A DNA stretch of 64,000 nucleotides from Roseospirillum parvum. Its GTDB lineage: Bacteria > Pseudomonadota > Alphaproteobacteria > Rhodospirillales > Rhodospirillaceae. Location: contig NZ_FNCV01000008.1 of the NCBI RefSeq assembly GCF_900100455.1, forward strand, positions 62,001 through 126,000, in the 5' to 3' direction. Position 1 is the first letter of the stretch, and every line of letters begins with the position of its first letter. Below the pieces are notes generated by a model that worked only from the letters and a program-made list of their open reading frames with translations, made no database searches and was not told the DNA's origin. This document shows, in pieces, positions 4,799-62,480 of this stretch. The translations under genes were made by a program, and so were the position numbers.

Positions 4799-4858
4799 TT
4801 GGACTCCGGCTTGGACTCCGGTTTGGACTCCGGCTTGGACTCCGGCTTGGACTCCGGT
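4799..4858. repeat. 12-bp tandem repeat, five units
   Basis: Five head-to-tail copies of ttggactccggc/t occupy 4799-4858 with only C/T variation in the last base. They sit in the gap between the fur stop codon (4866) and the olsB start (4695). Such an array can change length by slippage; it could alter spacing or termination between fur and olsB, but nothing more can be read from the sequence. Confidence 0.95.
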
Positions 4859-15056: not shown

Positions 15057-15512
15057 TCAGAAGAACAGGTAGCCCTTGGCGCCAAAGATCACCAACGGAA
15101 CGATCCCCAGCAGAAGCAGCGTCGGAACCTCGTTCATGACGCGGTAGAACTTGTGGGGATGAACATTGCGATCATTGGCAAAGGCGATCTGCCATTTCGT
15201 GTTGTAGACATGGCAGACCACCAGACCGGCCACCAGCAGCAGCTTCAGGTGCATCCAGCCGCTGGTCATCCACACCGGGAACATCCAGAAGCCGGTGGTC
15301 GCCACCACCACCAGCGACGGATGCATGATCGCCTTCAGCAGGCGGCGTTCCATCACCTTGAAGTTTTCGCTCATCTCCGAGCCCGGAGCGACCTGGGCGT
15401 GATAAACAAACAGGCGCGGCAGATAGAACAGACCGGCCATCCAGGTAATGACCGCGATGATATGAAGGGTCTTGATCCACAAGAACCCGGTGGAATCATA
15501 ATCGGGGATCAT
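15057..15512 (-). CDS. hemJ: Protoporphyrinogen oxidase HemJ
   Basis: A 151-residue inner-membrane protein with about four transmembrane helices, converting protoporphyrinogen IX to protoporphyrin IX. The first helix contains LWIKTLHIIAVITWMAGLFY with conserved His17 and Trp24, followed by LPRLFVYH; the C-terminus is VIFGAKGYLFF. ATG at 15512 is preceded by GGAGAG. It is the third gene of a hemE-hemH-hemJ operon, which would supply three late steps of heme synthesis in one transcript. Confidence 0.93.
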   Translation of the reverse strand: MIPDYDSTGFLWIKTLHIIAVITWMAGLFYLPRLFVYHAQVAPGSEMSENFKVMERRLLKAIMHPSLVVVATTGFWMFPVWMTSGWMHLKLLLVAGLVVCHVYNTKWQIAFANDRNVHPHKFYRVMNEVPTLLLLGIVPLVIFGAKGYLFF

Positions 15513-15537
15513 GAAGCTCTCCGGCGCGGGAAATCGG

Positions 15538-16617
15538 TCAGGAAGCGGCGCGGGTCGGGGCCGACCGGCCCGGCGGGGTATTGGGGCAACGCTTGTTCTC
15601 GATCGGACAGTTGCGCGGGCCCCGGGTGCGGCAGGTGTGGCCGGCCCGGCGCACAATACGCCGGACCAGCCGTCCCAGGCCATCGATAAAGCGCTGGTCG
15701 ATGCCCACCGCCGGCACCCGGTAGTAGGCCGGCACACCGGAGGCCTCGGCCAGCTCGCCGTATTCGATGTCCAGCTCGACCAGGGTTTCGGAATGTTCCG
15801 AAACAAAGGCGATGGGCACCACGATCAGGGCCACCTTATCGACCCCGGCACGGGCGATTTCCTCTTCCGTCGACGGGCCGATCCATTCCAGCGGCCCGAC
15901 CCGGCTCTGATAGCACACCGTCCAGTCGAGGTCGGGGATGTCGAGCGCCCCCACCACGGCGCGGGCCGTCTCCTCGACCTGCCACTGATAGGGGTCGCCG
16001 CGTTCGATCACCTTCTTGGGCAGCCCATGGGCCGAGAACAGCACCCGGAAAGGCTTGTCGGTGCCATCGCGGCGCCGCATGTCCTCGATGGTGGTGGTGA
16101 TCAGGCTGGCTTGCGCCTCCAGCCAGCCGTCATTGATCGGATAGCAGCAGATTTCCTGGGTCGGCGGCGCCAGCCCGGCGCGGCGGGCGTATTTGTGCCA
16201 TGCCGCGAACGAGGATTCGGTGGTCGAGGTGGAATACTGCGGGTAGAGCGGCAGCAGCACCACGTGGTCGGGGTCGAATGCCTGCACCGCCCGCACCGCC
16301 TCCGGCACCAGCGGGTGCCAATAGCGCATGGCGACGAACACCCGCACCTCGTCGGCCAGATCGGCCAGGCTTTCCTCGAGGGCCTCGGCCTGGGCCTGGG
16401 TCTGGTCCACCAGCGGCGAGCGCCCACCGATCTTGCTGTAGATCTCGCGGGCGATGGGGGCGCGCTTGCGGGCGATGTACCAGGCCAGCGGCTTGCGGAT
16501 GATCAGCGGCAGATTGATGATCGCCGGATCGCTGAACAGGTTGAACAGGAAAGGCTCGATGGCATCGAGCCCATCCGGTCCCCCCAGGTTGAACACCACC
16601 ACCGCAAGGCGCTTCAT
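15538..16617 (-). CDS. hemH: Ferrochelatase
   Basis: A 359-residue enzyme inserting Fe2+ into protoporphyrin IX. Recognisable elements: LAVVVFNLGGPDG at the N-terminus, VLLPLYPQYSTSTTESSF, LFSAHGLPKKVIERGDPY with the metal-site His, and VPIAFVSEHSETLVELDIEY. The C-terminus has three Cys in CRTRGPRNCPIENKRC; a 2Fe-2S cluster is known in some alphaproteobacterial ferrochelatases, so cluster binding is possible here but not shown. Lies 18 bases after hemE and 25 before hemJ. Confidence 0.96.
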   Translation of the reverse strand: MKRLAVVVFNLGGPDGLDAIEPFLFNLFSDPAIINLPLIIRKPLAWYIARKRAPIAREIYSKIGGRSPLVDQTQAQAEALEESLADLADEVRVFVAMRYWHPLVPEAVRAVQAFDPDHVVLLPLYPQYSTSTTESSFAAWHKYARRAGLAPPTQEICCYPINDGWLEAQASLITTTIEDMRRRDGTDKPFRVLFSAHGLPKKVIERGDPYQWQVEETARAVVGALDIPDLDWTVCYQSRVGPLEWIGPSTEEEIARAGVDKVALIVVPIAFVSEHSETLVELDIEYGELAEASGVPAYYRVPAVGIDQRFIDGLGRLVRRIVRRAGHTCRTRGPRNCPIENKRCPNTPPGRSAPTRAAS

Positions 16618-16635: not shown

Positions 16636-17694
16636 TTACTGGGCCGCCTGACCCCGAGTCTGACCCCGAACCTGGGCGATCAGCGCGGCGACGTTTTCCG
16701 GCGGCGTCTGCGGCACGATGCCATGCCCCAGGTTGAACACAAACGGACCCTTGCCGAGGGTCTCCAGGATGTGGGCGACCGATTTTTCCATCGCCGCCCC
16801 GCCCTGAACCACCAGCAACGGGTCAAGATTGCCCTGCACGGTGCACAGGGGCTGCAACCGCTCGGCCGCCCAGGCCACCGGCACCGTGGTGTCGAGGCTG
16901 ACCGCGTCGACGCCGGTTTCCTTCACGAAGGCCTCGTACATCGGCCCGGCCATGCGCGGGAAGCCGATCACCGGCAGGTCGGGATGGACCGCCTTCAGGC
17001 CTTCCACGATACGCCGGTTGGGCTCGATCACCCACTGGCGGAAGGCGTCCTCGGGCAGCACGCCGGCCCAGCTGTCGAAAATCTGCACCGCCTCGGCGCC
17101 GGCCTCCACCTGAGCCAGCAGATAGGCCGTGCTGGCCTCGACCACAAGGTCGATCAGGCGCCCGAAACCGTCCGGGTCACCATAGGCCCAGGCCTTGGTC
17201 TCGGCATAGTCCTTCGAGCTGCCGCCCTCGACCATGTAGGTGGCGATGGTCCACGGGGCGCCGCAGAAGCCGATCAGCGCCGTGGTTTCGGGGATCGAGC
17301 GGGCCAGCCCGCGCACCGTCTCGAAGACCGGCGCCAGATGGTCGATCACCTGCCCGGGGTTGAGCTTGTCCAGCCCGGCGGTGTCGCGGATCGGCGCCAG
17401 CACCGGCCCTTCGCCGGCCCGGAACTCCACCGTCTGGCCCAGGGCGTGGGGGATGACCAGGATGTCGGAAAACAGGATCGCCGCATCGAAGTCATAGCGC
17501 CGCAGCGGCTGCAAGGTGACCTCGACCGCCTTTTCCGGGGTGTAGCACAGATCCAGGAAGCCCTTGGTGTCGGCCCGCACCTCCCGGTACTCGGGCAGAT
17601 AACGCCCGGCCTGCCGCATCAGCCAGACCGGCGGCGGGGTCAGGGTCTCGCCTTTCAGGGCACGGATGAAACGCTTGTTGGCTGGGTCGGTCAT
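16636..17694 (-). CDS. hemE: Uroporphyrinogen decarboxylase
   Basis: A 352-residue cytoplasmic enzyme converting uroporphyrinogen III to coproporphyrinogen III. The N-terminal signature [18 protein letters not shown] lies at residues 23-40, and [22 protein letters not shown] and [17 protein letters not shown] follow. First gene of the hemE-hemH-hemJ unit; its start faces the presumed replication origin, as in Caulobacter and Rickettsia. Confidence 0.97.
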
Positions 17695-17794
17695 GAATGG
17701 GGCGATCCGCTCTGGAGGGAAGGGAGATGGGCGGCGGCCAACCTATTACAAAACCATTCTGGAAGAAAAAGGGTTTTGTGGTTGTAGGAGGGCT

Positions 17795-17803
17795 TGTGGA
17801 TAA
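17795..17803 (-). promoter_or_regulatory. DnaA box, perfect consensus
   Basis: TGTGGATAA on the plus strand, equal to TTATCCACA on the minus strand, next to the AT-rich stretch of the hemE-ppsR gap. Confidence 0.8.
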
Positions 17804-17872
17804 CGGGGATTCCGGGAATTCTCAAGGTTTTCCAGAGGCCGCGCCAACCCCACATGGGCCTGGGGAAAAGCC

Positions 17873-17881
17873 TGTGGATCA
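17873..17881 (-). promoter_or_regulatory. DnaA box, one mismatch
   Basis: TGTGGATCA on the plus strand differs from the consensus TGTGGATAA at one base and lies 78 bases from the perfect box in the same orientation. Confidence 0.6.
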
Positions 17882-18115
17882 TGGGGATGAAAGGCCCGGC
17901 CGGGCAACGAGTCGCCGGGTTTCGGGCAAAGCCGGGACAACCCCCGGGCCGACCCCGAGTCCTCCCCAGGCTCGGCGGGGGCTCTTTCGGTTATCCCCGG
18001 CTTGAAAACCCGGCGGGCCGATCCTCGGCTTGGCGGGATGAAAAACGGGCCCTTCGGCCAGACCGGGAGTTGTCCACCGGTTCGCCGGAGTCGTCCACAG
18101 GGAGCTGTTGATGCC

Positions 18116-18937
18116 ATGAAAACGCTGCACCTTCATCTGGTCTCCGACGCCAGCGGGGAAACCGTCAGCAGCCTGGCCCGGGCCTGTCTGGTGCAGTTCG
18201 AGGGCATCAACGTGATCCATCACCTGTGGTGGCTGGTGCGCACCAAGGGGCAGATCGAGCGGGTTGCCGAGGGGGTGCGCTCCAATCCCGGGGTGGTGCT
18301 CTATACGCTGGTCGATCCCGAGCTGCGCCGGCCCCTGGAGGTGGCCTGCGCCGAAACGCCCGGGGTGACCGGCATTCCGGTGCTCGACCCGATCATGCGT
18401 GCCCTGGGCGGTCATCTCGAGGTGCGGGCCAGCGAGAAGCCGGGCCGTCAGCACACCCTGGACGACAACTACTATGACCGCATCGACGCCATGCATTTCG
18501 CGATCGACCACGATGACGGCCAGTCGCTGGGCACCATCCATCAGGCCGATGTGATCCTGACCGGCGTTTCGCGGACCTCCAAGACGCCAACCTGCATGTA
18601 TCTGGCCAACCGGGGCATCCGGGCCGCCAACGTGCCGCTGGTGCCCGGCGTGCCGGCCCCGGAGGAGCTGAAAAAGGCCACCAAAAGTCTAATCGTCGGG
18701 CTGACCCGGGATTCGCGCAGCCTGGCCGACATCCGGCGCAATCGGCTGCGGGTGATGAACGAGCACCGCGACACCAGCTATGCCGACCCCGACCATGTGC
18801 GCGAGGAAATCCTCGCCGCCCGCCGGCTGTGCCAACAGAACGGCTGGAAGGTGATCGACGTCACCCGGCGCAGCATCGAGGAAGTGGCCGCCACCATCCT
18901 GCAGATGCTGCCGGCCCGCGACGGGGGCGGCGAATGA
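18116..18937 (+). CDS. ppsR: Putative pyruvate,phosphate dikinase regulatory protein (DUF299/PpsR kinase-pyrophosphorylase)
   Basis: A 273-residue bifunctional ADP-dependent kinase/Pi-dependent pyrophosphorylase of the DUF299 family. The N-terminus LHLHLVSDASGETVSSLARA and the P-loop GVSRTSKTPTCMYLANRG (from residue 150) are diagnostic. Family members switch PEP synthase or pyruvate phosphate dikinase on and off by threonine phosphorylation. ATG at 18116; its stop overlaps the maf ATG (ATGA). It is the homologue of RP001, the classic right-hand neighbour of the alphaproteobacterial origin. Confidence 0.95.
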   Translation: MKTLHLHLVSDASGETVSSLARACLVQFEGINVIHHLWWLVRTKGQIERVAEGVRSNPGVVLYTLVDPELRRPLEVACAETPGVTGIPVLDPIMRALGGHLEVRASEKPGRQHTLDDNYYDRIDAMHFAIDHDDGQSLGTIHQADVILTGVSRTSKTPTCMYLANRGIRAANVPLVPGVPAPEELKKATKSLIVGLTRDSRSLADIRRNRLRVMNEHRDTSYADPDHVREEILAARRLCQQNGWKVIDVTRRSIEEVAATILQMLPARDGGGE

Positions 18938-41599: not shown

Positions 41600-41615
41600 T
41601 GTTTCACGTGGAACA
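41600..41615. promoter_or_regulatory. parS centromere-like site 1
   Basis: TGTTTCACGTGGAACA fits the 16-base parS consensus TGTTTCACGTGNAACA bound by chromosomal ParB. It lies between the rho terminator and the convergent quinone oxidoreductase gene, 9 kb from parAB. Confidence 0.9.
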
Positions 41616-49213: not shown

Positions 49214-49229
49214 TGTTCCACGTGAAACA
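49214..49229. promoter_or_regulatory. parS centromere-like site 2
   Basis: TGTTCCACGTGAAACA matches TGTTNCACGTGAAACA exactly. Lies in the 35-base gap between mnmG and rsmG, 640 bases upstream of parA. Confidence 0.93.
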
Positions 49230-49243
49230 TGAGGACTCCCCCA

Positions 49244-49891
49244 ATGACTGACTGGGGCCCCGACCAGTTCGCCGAGGCCACCGGTGTTTCACGTGAAACA
49301 CTCGATCGCCTCAGGCTCTACGTGGAGACACTCGGCCAGTGGCAACGGCGCATCAATCTTGTCGGTCCGCGGACGTTACGCGAAATCTGGCACCGTCACA
49401 TCCTGGACTGCTGGCAACTCGTCCCCCTGATCGGCAGCCGCCCGGGACCCTTGATCGATATGGGGGCCGGGGCGGGGCTTCCGGGGCTCATTCTGGCCAT
49501 TGCCGGCGTGGACGACGTCCACCTTGTCGAATCCGATTCGCGCAAGGCCGCTTTCTTGAGGGAATCGGCGCGAATCCTTGATGTTTCGGCCACCATCCAC
49601 ACCCGGCGGGTGGAGGGCATGAGCGAACCGAAAGCGCAGACAGTGGTCGCGCGGGCCTTGGCCCCCCTGGATCGACTGCTCGCCCTAAGCGCGGGAATCC
49701 GCCATTCCGGCACCTTGTGCGTCTTTCCAAAGGGGCGAGATGTAGAGCGCGAATTGACCGAAGCCCACAAAATGTGGATCATGCGCTTTGACAGGGTGCC
49801 CAGCCGGACCGATTCGCAAGGCACCATCCTGCTCCTGCACGAGGTCGCGCCCCATGGAGATGTCTCCTCCCCGTTCCAACCGCCCGGCTGA
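49244..49891 (+). CDS. rsmG: 16S rRNA (guanine-527-N7)-methyltransferase RsmG (GidB)
   Basis: A 215-residue SAM-dependent methyltransferase. LGQWQRRINLVGPRTLREIWHRHILD and the SAM loop LIDMGAGAGLPGLILAI are conserved. ATG at 49244 has GAGGA about 9 bases upstream; an ATG at 49229 would sit on parS site 2. The codons for VSRET (from about residue 14) form parS site 3. Overlaps parA by 38 bases. Confidence 0.96.
   Translation: MTDWGPDQFAEATGVSRETLDRLRLYVETLGQWQRRINLVGPRTLREIWHRHILDCWQLVPLIGSRPGPLIDMGAGAGLPGLILAIAGVDDVHLVESDSRKAAFLRESARILDVSATIHTRRVEGMSEPKAQTVVARALAPLDRLLALSAGIRHSGTLCVFPKGRDVERELTEAHKMWIMRFDRVPSRTDSQGTILLLHEVAPHGDVSSPFQPPG
49285..49300. promoter_or_regulatory. parS centromere-like site 3, inside rsmG
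   Basis: TGTTTCACGTGAAACA is the perfect palindromic parS consensus. It lies in the rsmG coding region and encodes Val-Ser-Arg-Glu-Thr, only 55 bases from site 2. Confidence 0.95.
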
Positions 49892-50669
49892 GGGCCCACG
49901 GATTATCGCCATCGCCAACCAGAAGGGGGGCGTCGGCAAGACCACCACGGCCATCAATCTGGCCACGGCCCTGGCGGCGGTGAACAAGAAGGTGCTGGTG
50001 ATCGACCTGGATCCCCAGGGCAATGCCTCCACCGGCATGGGGTTGGACCGCAACCAGCGGCGAACCAACAGCTACCATGTCCTGCTCGGCGAGTCCGAGC
50101 TGGACGAGGCGATCATCCCCAGCGGCATTCCCGGGTTGGCGATGGTTCCCTCCGGCGTTGATCTGGCCGGCGCCGAACTGGAGCTGGTGCAGATCCGCGA
50201 GCGTGAGTTCCGCCTCAAGGAAGCCTTGAAGGGCCACGGCCAGGGCTTCGACTATGTCCTGATTGATTGTCCGCCGGCGTTGGGCCTTCTCACCCTCAAT
50301 GCGCTGGTCGCGGCGCAGGCGGTGATGGTGCCGCTCCAGTGCGAGTTCTTCGCCCTCGAGGGCATCAGCCATCTGGTGCGGACCATCGAGCGGGTGAAGA
50401 AGGTCTTCAACCCCGGCCTCGACATCCAGGGCATCGTCCTGACCATGTTCGACACCCGCAACAACCTCTCCGACATGGTGGCCAGCGATGTTCGGGCCTA
50501 CTTCGGGGCCAAGGTCTACGACACGGTGATCCCCCGCAATGTGCGGGTGTCGGAGGCGCCATCCCACGGCAAGCCGGTCCTGCTGTACGACTTCAACAGC
50601 CGCGGGGCCCAGGCCTACGTCATGCTTGCCGGCGAGGTCTTGAAGCGCGAGCGGGAGGCGGCGGCATGA
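49854..50669 (+). CDS. parA: Chromosome partitioning ATPase ParA
   Basis: A 271-residue Walker-type ATPase driving segregation of the origin region. The deviant Walker A KGGVGKTT is at residues 24-31, followed by VLVIDLDPQGNASTGMG; LIDCPPALGLLTLNALVAA and PRNVRVSEAPSHGKPVLLYD are typical. ATG at 49854, inside rsmG, with GAGGTC upstream; MSPPR two codons later is an alternative. Confidence 0.98.
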   Translation: MEMSPPRSNRPAEGPRIIAIANQKGGVGKTTTAINLATALAAVNKKVLVIDLDPQGNASTGMGLDRNQRRTNSYHVLLGESELDEAIIPSGIPGLAMVPSGVDLAGAELELVQIREREFRLKEALKGHGQGFDYVLIDCPPALGLLTLNALVAAQAVMVPLQCEFFALEGISHLVRTIERVKKVFNPGLDIQGIVLTMFDTRNNLSDMVASDVRAYFGAKVYDTVIPRNVRVSEAPSHGKPVLLYDFNSRGAQAYVMLAGEVLKREREAAA

Positions 50670-51649
50670 GCCGGGAGACAGCAATGAGCAGCGAGAGCGC
50701 GAACACCCGGCGGCGCAACCTGGGCCGAGGATTGTCCGCCCTGTTTGGCGAGGATGACGAGGCCCTGGAGGCGGCGGCGGCGCCGGGGTTGGCCGAAGAC
50801 TCGGCGACTCCACCCACTGATGCCAACCGTCCCAACCGGATGGTTGCGCTCAGCCAGCTCAAGCCCTCCCCGTTCCAGCCGCGCCGTCGCTTCGACGATG
50901 CCGCAATGGCCGAGTTGGTTGAGTCCGTGCGGGCCCGGGGCGTGTTGCAGCCGATCCTGGTGCGCCCCGACCCCAACGACGATGGCTTCGAGATCATTGC
51001 CGGCGAGCGTCGCTGGCGGGCCGCCCAGGAAGCCCAGCTGCACGACGTCCCCGTGGTGGTCCGGACCTTCTCCGACCGCGAGGTGCTGGAGGTGGCGCTG
51101 GTCGAGAACCTGCAGCGCCAGGACCTGTCGCCACTGGAGGAGGCGGAAGGCTACGCCCGCCTGATGGCGGAGTTCGCCCACACCCAGGAGCAACTGGCCG
51201 AGGCGGTCGGCAAAAGCCGCAGTCATGTGGCCAACATGTTGCGGCTTCTCGGCCTGCCCGACGACGTCAAGGAAATGGTCAGCGACGGTCGGCTCAGCAT
51301 GGGCCATGCCCGGGCGCTGTTGGGGGCGGAAAGCCCCTCGGTGCTGGCTCGCCAGGTGGTGGGCAAACAGATGAGTGTCCGCCAGACCGAGGCGGCGGCG
51401 CGCAAACCCGATCAGCCGGTGCAAAGCCGGGCCCGCTCCGGCAAGGGCGAGGCCGCGGCCCGCTCCGACAAGGATCCGGACACGGTGGCGCTCGAGCGGG
51501 ATCTGGCCAACCTCCTGGGACTGAAGGTGGAAATCACCTTCGGTGGCCGAGGCGGCTCGCTGACCCTGCACTACGAAACCCTGGAGCAGCTCGACGACAT
51601 CCTGCATCGCCTCAACCCCCCCGACGGCAGCGGCTATATAGCGGGTTGA
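50666..51649 (+). CDS. parB: Chromosome partitioning protein ParB
   Basis: A 327-residue parS-binding CTPase. N-terminal RRRNLGRGLSALFGED, then SQLKPSPFQPRRRFD, the CTP-binding GERRWRAAQEA and ENLQRQDLSPLEEAEGYARL, the HTH TQEQLAEAVGKSRSHVANMLRLL, and a C-terminal dimer domain. ATG overlaps the parA stop (ATGA) with GGAGG upstream. Last gene of the unit. Confidence 0.98.
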   Translation: MSRETAMSSESANTRRRNLGRGLSALFGEDDEALEAAAAPGLAEDSATPPTDANRPNRMVALSQLKPSPFQPRRRFDDAAMAELVESVRARGVLQPILVRPDPNDDGFEIIAGERRWRAAQEAQLHDVPVVVRTFSDREVLEVALVENLQRQDLSPLEEAEGYARLMAEFAHTQEQLAEAVGKSRSHVANMLRLLGLPDDVKEMVSDGRLSMGHARALLGAESPSVLARQVVGKQMSVRQTEAAARKPDQPVQSRARSGKGEAAARSDKDPDTVALERDLANLLGLKVEITFGGRGGSLTLHYETLEQLDDILHRLNPPDGSGYIAG

Positions 51650-61979: not shown

Positions 61980-62480
61980 TCAGGGGGTGATGGTGAGGTT
62001 GGTGGTGGGGGGGATGAGTTTCAGCAGCAGGGTCATGTGGGGTGGGGCGAGGGCGATGCAGCCTTCGGTCGGCGGGTAATTGACGCCGGCCAGGTGCAGG
62101 AAGATGGCGCTGCCCAGGCCGGGTTGGGGTGGGTCGTCGTTGTGGCCGAGGACGATGACGAGGTCGTACAGGTGGTCTTGCCGCCACAGGTTTTCGGCGC
62201 TGGCCGGGTGGGGCAGGGTGACCGGGCGGTTGTAGTCCTGGTGGGTCGGGTCGTCGCACCAGCCGTCGTTTGGTCGGATGGCCTGGGTGGGCAGGGTGGT
62301 GGCTGGCGGGGTGGGCCAGCGGTCGGGTCGGTAGAGCAGGTGGCGCAAGGGGTAGCGGCCGGTCGGGGTGGCGCCATCGCCTTCCCGTTTGTCGGTCCGC
62401 ACGCCGCCCCGGCCCAGGGCGCAGGGCCAGCGGTGCGGTCCGATGGTCAGTCGGCCGCTGGCGGAAACCTGGATCTCCAT
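61980..62480 (-). CDS. L,D-transpeptidase family (YkuD) protein
   Basis: A 166-residue protein made up almost wholly of a YkuD domain. His129 in IFLHLAGVNYPPTEGCIAL and Cys141 form the catalytic motif, here with TEGC in place of the common SHGC. The family cross-links peptidoglycan or modifies lipoproteins. There is no signal peptide in the chosen frame (ATG at 62480), so it may be cytoplasmic or exported otherwise. Confidence 0.87.
   Translation of the reverse strand: MEIQVSASGRLTIGPHRWPCALGRGGVRTDKREGDGATPTGRYPLRHLLYRPDRWPTPPATTLPTQAIRPNDGWCDDPTHQDYNRPVTLPHPASAENLWRQDHLYDLVIVLGHNDDPPQPGLGSAIFLHLAGVNYPPTEGCIALAPPHMTLLLKLIPPTTNLTITP

Follow-up and report, generated by a model that had tools for sequence, protein, structure and literature searches.

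Does replication of the chromosome of Roseospirillum parvum begin between hemE and ppsR, as an earlier note on this DNA had claimed? The window, meaning the whole stretch of 64,000 nucleotides that was analysed, covers positions 62001–126000 of contig C20 (G000:C20:62001–126000), which is 132.7 kb long and belongs to a genome of 3.497 Mb in 37 contigs. The origins of Caulobacter and Rickettsia prowazekii are located between hemE and COG1806 (PMC1914354), and in Hyphomonas neptunium the marker frequency peaks near hemE after skew and DnaA-box searches had been unclear (PMC6650430). Comparisons of the sequence with shuffled versions of itself, with 60 other hemE–ppsR gaps and with the region around dnaA point in the same direction: the gap is very probably the chromosomal oriC, an origin of the hemE/COG1806 type, as in Caulobacter and Rickettsia. 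Such an origin is expected biology, and with it the draft genome gains a defined starting point for its chromosome. Searches of the open-access literature found no paper combining oriC, hemE and Rhodospirillum.

Gene context of the hemE–ppsR gap

The proposed oriC is the whole intergenic gap of 421 bp at positions 17695–18115 (79.7–80.1 kb of C20), with eight DnaA-like boxes. The flanking genes are divergent, and their identity as hemE and a DUF299 family member, which had been read from the sequence alone, is confirmed by matches to NCBIfam. The left boundary gene is hemE, encoding uroporphyrinogen decarboxylase (16636–17694, minus strand; TIGR01464, 416 bits), and the right boundary gene is ppsR, also known as DUF299 or COG1806 (18116–18937, plus strand; NF003742, 319 bits). 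Farther out on the hemE side are hemH (15538–16617) and hemJ (15057–15806). On the other side ppsR is followed by maf and, farther to the right, by mnmE, mnmG, rsmG, a parA-like gene, parB and holA. Small open reading frames overlap the gap on both strands (17697–18005 and 17794–18111 on the plus strand, 17746–18117 and the end of 17879–18541 on the minus strand).

The parA-like gene (49788–50669) is named by its context, its score being under the curated cut-off of the ParA model, and parB lies within an open reading frame at 50267–51649. A motif scan gave a perfect parS site at 49285–49300 and two sites with one mismatch at 41600–41615 and 49214–49229. The measured distance of the parAB/parS cluster from the gap is 23–34 kb, in agreement with the earlier note.

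A perfect parS core, GTTTCACGTGAAAC, is found inside the hemE–ppsR gap itself in 2 of the 61 gaps compared, at position 146 in L004 and at position 148 in L006 (presumably Caenispirillum salinarum and C. bisanense), whereas the parS sites of the window lie 23–31 kb from the gap. A centromere within the origin could couple ParB loading to initiation in these two.

DnaA boxes in the gap

The gap contains one perfect DnaA box, one box with one mismatch and six with two mismatches. Dinucleotide shuffling of the gap (1000 shuffles) gave means of 0.0 perfect boxes, 0.027 at up to one mismatch and 0.489 at up to two mismatches, and the real counts at these three levels (1, 2 and 8) were reached in 0/1000 shuffles each. 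The top-ranked 421-bp windows for box density on the whole of C20 all overlap the gap.

The perfect box, TTATCCACA (box 1; 17795–17803, minus strand), is R1-like and stands next to the proposed unwinding side. It is the core of a longer block, CCTGTGGATAACGGGGAT, that is common to relatives and whose right half is a weak, abutting and co-oriented box. The copy of this block in the window is found at 17793–17810 with one mismatch, and the weak box-like sequence, with an ATCCCCG core, occupies 17804–17812 on the minus strand and forms a co-oriented tandem pair with box 1. The near-consensus box TGATCCACA (17873–17881, minus strand; one mismatch) lies 78 bp from box 1, and several relatives have a minus-strand box 76–78 bp from box 1. 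Its T-to-G change is like that of the Caulobacter G-boxes in the form that we assume for them. It is abutted by the weak box TCATCCCCA (17882–17890, minus strand; two-mismatch scan), and together they read TGTGGATCATGGGGAT, a two-mismatch copy of the extended box 1, with a two-mismatch copy of the 16-mer core of the block at 17873.

The other weak boxes, all from the two-mismatch scan, are TTTTCCAGA (17828–17836, plus strand), at a place where several relatives have a plus-strand box about 33 bp past box 1, TTTTCCCCA (17861–17869, minus strand), TTATCCCCG (17991–17999, plus strand) and TTGTCCACC (18070–18078, plus strand). The last of these is the first of a pair proximal to ppsR, the second being TCGTCCACA (18091–18099, plus strand), 21 bp from the first; aligned relatives carry this pair as TTATCCCC(G/A)…TTATCCACAGG. 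The earlier note had described one perfect and one near-perfect box in the same orientation, which are those at 17795–17803 and 17873–17881. It had also counted three weaker boxes, which are probably those at 17991, 18070 and 18091 on the plus strand; at two mismatches there are six.

Comparison with the gaps of relatives

Relatives were fetched with ppsR, which gave 110 loci (L003–L112, the window's own L003 included). In seventy of these hemE was present and separated from ppsR by a gap of 200–900 bp, which left 61 gaps after removal of duplicates, namely that of the window and 60 others; no usable gap was obtained from the remaining 40 of the 110. Box counts over these rows are not independent because the rows are related throughout, and four pairs share more than 30% of their 12-mers.

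Perfect DnaA boxes number 49 in the 27,935 bp of the 61 gaps and 3 in 737,962 bp of flanking sequence. At up to one mismatch there are 166 in the gaps, against 110 in the flanks and a mean total of 4.0 in shuffled gaps (20 shuffles), and such a box occurs at least once in 57 of the 61 gaps and is absent from four. The variant TGATCCACA taken alone is less enriched, with 3 in the gaps and 27 in the flanks of the 61 loci. The boxes also share a layout in many rows: a minus-strand box about 300–345 bp from ppsR, a second minus-strand box 76–78 bp on, and a pair of plus-strand boxes close to ppsR. Within the block beside box 1, CGGGGAT is conserved at 80–97% per column in 59 rows, a figure that is inflated because the rows were positioned by fitting that same block (at up to six mismatches, with some anchors visibly wrong).

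For 22 loci, such as L039, L040 and L049, the sequence reaches 5 kb or more upstream of ppsR, and no hemE was found in those 5–10 kb. Fifteen of the 22 nevertheless have a box at up to one mismatch within 600 bp of ppsR, and the density is 20 boxes in 13.2 kb there versus 41 in 409.6 kb. The boxes thus tend to stay with ppsR, though more weakly.

The CtrA motif TTAA-N7-TTAA is absent from the gap of the window and from all 61 gaps (0/61), so that the gap is not classed with the CtrA-controlled Cori origins. A strain of Wolbachia has likewise been reported to be without CtrA sites (PMC1914354).

The AT-rich stretch and the GANTC sites

The least stable 40 bp of the gap adjoin box 1, the perfect box, on the side that faces hemE. 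The stretch at 17739–17779, a candidate duplex-unwinding element, is 66% AT in a window that is 69% GC, it holds the nearest-neighbour stability minimum of the gap, and lower values occur in only 0.08% of the 40-bp windows of C20. The description of an AT-rich stretch beside the perfect box in GC-rich surroundings was thus accurate. The stretch includes an inverted repeat, ACAAAACC (17748–17755) and GGTTTTGT (17772–17779), with a 16-bp loop; by eye, the repeat is not evident among 20 aligned relatives.

The gap contains four GANTC sites, the number that had been counted, but the enrichment is only mild: four or more are found in 1.0% of the 421-bp windows of C20, with a maximum of seven. Control through GANTC is possible because the genome encodes a CcrM-like methyltransferase and a GcrA homologue. 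Elsewhere in the window, at 4802–4854, five GACTC sites have an exact spacing of 12 bp, which suggests a 12-bp tandem repeat.

A putative period-three tract beside box 1

On the hemE side of box 1 there are four consecutive T-N-G triplets, TTG TGG TTG TAG (17776–17787, plus strand), 7 nt from box 1. Read from the box they are 3'-GAT GTT GGT GTT-5', and we propose them as variant DnaA-trios. The published DnaA-trio is 3'-GAT-5', and a survey of such elements used the rule of a box followed, within 16 nt, by three or more triplets with a central A (PMC8287927). For the comparison of this tract, 40 of the 61 gaps were anchored on the extended box at up to three mismatches, and in 36 of these 40 the anchor is more than 250 bp from ppsR. 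The published rule picks out 1 of the 40 anchored gaps (background 196 of 1938 positions), and the longest run with a central A in the window is two triplets. Runs of at least two 3'-GNT-5' triplets beside the strong box, on the other hand, are found in 36/40 anchored gaps against 123/1938 background positions, and runs of at least three in 13/40 against 0/1938; the run of the window is four, with a spacer of 7. The central base over the four triplets in 36 rows is G 72 times, T 44 times and A 28 times.

One reading of the tract, to which we give fairly low odds, is a variant DnaA-trio, 3'-GNT-5', used by the origins of this order, with DnaA reading the G at the first position but not the central base. 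We give nearly even chances to another explanation, in which the period-three tract is a promoter or leader element of hemE, or a product of shared ancestry, and not a DnaA-trio. The tract is indeed upstream of hemE on the transcribed side and the rows are related, but strand and spacing match those of published DnaA-trios (PMC8287927). With the gaps anchored, the identity to the left of box 1 in 36 rows is 0.495 at lag 3 and 0.427 at lag 6, and the remaining lags up to 7 give 0.23–0.34. For the fixed register a score of 275 was obtained, compared with a mean of 167 and a maximum of 202 in 2000 permutations; the register had been found on the same related rows on which it was tested. There is no period-three signal beside another minus-strand box of the same gaps.

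We count 17 rows to the family of the window, 13 from the search for ppsR relatives and four taken by genus name (L068 is one of the four). Eight rows chosen by the analyst (L003, L005, L006, L008, L018, L024, L030 and L068) have a lag-3 identity of 0.60, a level reached in 0 of 5000 shuffles; the family rows left out of this test had an unclear box-1 block or were omitted. A fixed triplet register in the family is not supported, as five members score 5.8 at offsets 0 and +1 and 6.2 at −3, and this speaks for the promoter or ancestry explanation.

The same applies to the analysis without anchors. The mean best lag-3 identity is 0.635 in the 13 family rows and 0.610 in all 61, above the shuffle maxima of 0.606 and 0.577 (30 shuffles each), but lags 5–7 are mostly as high or higher, and the best lag-3 19-mer of a gap lies within 30 nt to the left of box 1 in 17 of 40 gaps. 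In the window, the 19-mer with the highest lag-3 identity of the whole gap is the tract at 17776–17787 itself. This anchor-free result lowered our estimate for the variant trio a little further.

The variant-trio reading also involves the initiator. The DnaA protein of this genome was aligned to chain 8btg, which we take to be the Bacillus subtilis protein because residues 187, 190, 193, 202 and 228 fit the published description; by hand-counted positions it has Tyr at Asn187, Lys at Arg202 and Glu at Glu228. At the Asn187 position G060 and G052 also have Tyr, while G026 and G030 have His, in a small set of five DnaA proteins in all. In B. subtilis DnaA, Asn187 contacts the central adenine and Arg202 and Glu228 contact the guanine, and at the centre of the trio G or T lowers the rate of strand separation and C does not (PMC10721633). 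The central base of the variant trio would accordingly go unread because the initiator-specific motif of DnaA has lost the adenine-reading Asn in favour of Tyr or His. It is conceivable, if rather doubtful, that unwinding code and initiator changed together in this way, with the G-contacting equivalent of Glu228 kept and Lys replacing Arg202.

Candidates for the basal unwinding system (BUS) known from B. subtilis are reported from across the bacterial tree in the survey, with the classes of Proteobacteria marked (PMC8287927), and alphaproteobacterial trios may be among them. No paper on DnaA-trios of alphaproteobacteria was found by title or abstract in the open-access literature. If true, the variant trio would bear on a question raised in the paper on the BUS structure, whether DnaA homologues read different single-strand sequences, and would make that question testable with one purified protein and short DNA.

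Skew and polarised motifs

The cumulative GC skew of C20 declines until about 55 kb, stays level as far as about 80 kb and climbs from there. A change-point fit, in which the skew changes from −0.034 to +0.029, places the break best at 43 kb (approximate interval 41–86 kb), and 10 of 2000 block permutations were as good. The skew check suggested in the earlier note, here run on C20, therefore agrees with the gap in part: the interval includes it, but the best break is 37 kb away and the gap is not singled out. The octamer GGGNAGGG, presumably KOPS, is distributed 11:14 to the left of the gap and 18:3 to the right.

In the relative G026 (4,352,825 bp), which we take to be R. rubrum ATCC 11170, the same octamer is distributed 119:43 and 39:153 on the two arms. 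The skew of this genome, from 60 sampled stretches of 20 kb each, peaks near 2.0 Mb and bottoms out in a plateau at 3.87–4.29 Mb; the lowest sampled point, at about 3.87 Mb, is some 280 kb from ppsR (4.153 Mb). The one-contig relative G030 (3,876,289 bp), presumably Pararhodospirillum photometricum, has no clean skew and no usable minimum in 60 stretches of 20 kb. The combination of a hemE–ppsR gap and a CCTGTGGATAACGGGGAT-like block may serve as a rule to locate origins where skew fails, as in G030. The same rule could be tried on Rhodospirillum centenum, for which the genome paper reports no skew inflection (PMC2890560).

Box clusters elsewhere and the dnaA region

The search for perfect DnaA boxes was genome-wide, and the scan for weak boxes covered the whole of C20, 157 kb of C14, 20 kb of C18, 10 kb of C21 and 20 kb of C26. 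The 3.497-Mb genome has four copies of the perfect 9-mer TTATCCACA, of which two lie at contig ends (C18 and C21) that share sequence. No copy of the extended box 1 within two mismatches was found in the other scanned stretches of the genome. A clearer cluster of boxes elsewhere, for example beside dnaA, had been named as evidence that would speak against the gap, and none was detected beside dnaA or in the other scanned stretches; the best other cluster is upstream of uvrC on C26.

This cluster consists of five boxes at up to two mismatches in 421 bp, near a repeated GTGACGGCCCG motif, and includes the other perfect box away from contig ends (G000:C26:672805, L188:10001). With this number of boxes and no extended box 1 within two mismatches it was rejected as an origin, and it is a possible DnaA-regulated or titration site.

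The origin might instead lie beside dnaA, where it is annotated in many bacteria, the gap being merely a DnaA-bound regulatory region of hemE and ppsR. The dnaA gene is on another contig than the gap (C14:263083–264441), and in G026 dnaA (309–1748, at the start of the contig) and ppsR are only about 200 kb apart, so that the broad skew minimum cannot separate them. In addition, the genome paper of R. centenum, which found no skew inflection, suggests dnaA/dnaN as the general location (PMC2890560). These points notwithstanding, an origin at dnaA is highly improbable: the 4.4-kb dnaA locus contains no box at up to one mismatch, the 157 kb of C14 around it have no cluster and no more than three boxes at up to two mismatches in the best 421-bp window, and the skew of C14 has no change from minus to plus, its best break being from plus to minus with 387 of 2000 permutations as good. 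The multi-box layout that the gap shares with relatives is also more than promoters need.

There is similarly very little probability that the gap is only a site of DnaA titration or regulation, with boxes tying the transcription of hemE and ppsR to the cell cycle, for although single boxes do occur elsewhere (the perfect one upstream of uvrC) and the triplet tract and AT stretch, 45–93 bp from the hemE start, could hold the hemE promoter, this is opposed by the number of boxes, their two-sided layout, the unstable duplex next to the strong one and the fact that proven origins have the same syntenic position.

Two further observations concern dnaA-like sequences. A second, short DnaA-like match is found in a 287-aa open frame on a 9.2-kb contig (G000:C35:2370-2651, L002) and corresponds to profile positions 343–436, the C-terminal part. 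The dnaA gene of G030 (G030:C1:1041110-1042559) matches in two pieces, profile 1–81 and 99–437, perhaps owing to a frameshift or a variable linker.

Proposed opening and comparison with known origins

From the hemE side, the parts of the putative origin follow each other as AT-rich stretch, triplet tract, box 1 with its abutting partner, second tandem pair and ppsR-proximal pair. We infer DnaA binding, opening and helicase loading from this arrangement, and the mode of opening is proposed because of the analogy with unwinding guided by DnaA boxes (PMC8287927, PMC10721633). DnaA would bind box 1 and the abutting weak partner (17795–17812), which are both oriented toward hemE, with assistance from the second tandem pair, 78 bp away, and from the oppositely oriented pair near ppsR. 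A filament of DnaA-ATP could then extend from box 1 leftward, toward hemE, onto the plus strand, grip the triplet tract at 17776–17787 and open the AT-rich DNA at 17739–17779, where the helicase would be loaded. Methylation of GANTC sites by the CcrM homologue may time re-initiation, and the parAB/parS cluster would then segregate the new origins.

By position, boxes and AT-rich stretch this is very probably a Cori-type origin, but one that lacks the CtrA motif and carries a consensus box. It shares with Cori of Caulobacter crescentus both boundary genes, stronger and weaker boxes including the TGATCCACA type, the AT-rich stretch, parABS nearby, and GANTC sites in a genome that encodes a CcrM-like methyltransferase. 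The box here is the consensus TTATCCACA, whereas the classes described for Cori are moderate G-boxes and very weak W-boxes (PMC4468827); the CtrA site is lacking and dnaA is not on the same contig. The origins of R. prowazekii and Wolbachia are similar in the hemE boundary, a length of about 400 bp and the DnaA boxes, but they are AT-rich and have sites for CtrA and IHF, of which the scan here was for CtrA only and found none (PMC1914354).

The likeness to the BUS of B. subtilis lies in the order of co-oriented tandem boxes, a 7-nt spacer, a putative trinucleotide array and then AT-rich DNA. The difference is that the central adenine is not kept here, the triplets being 3'-G(G/T/A)T-5', and that Tyr or His takes the place of Asn187. 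The left half of E. coli oriC (DUE–R1), in the layout that we assume for it, has AT-rich DNA and then an R1-type box in the same orientation, as here, but the flanking genes are others and no 13-mers were seen in the gap. Both origins have TTGT on the corresponding strand near the box, and TTGT is described as a single-strand motif (PMC10797057).
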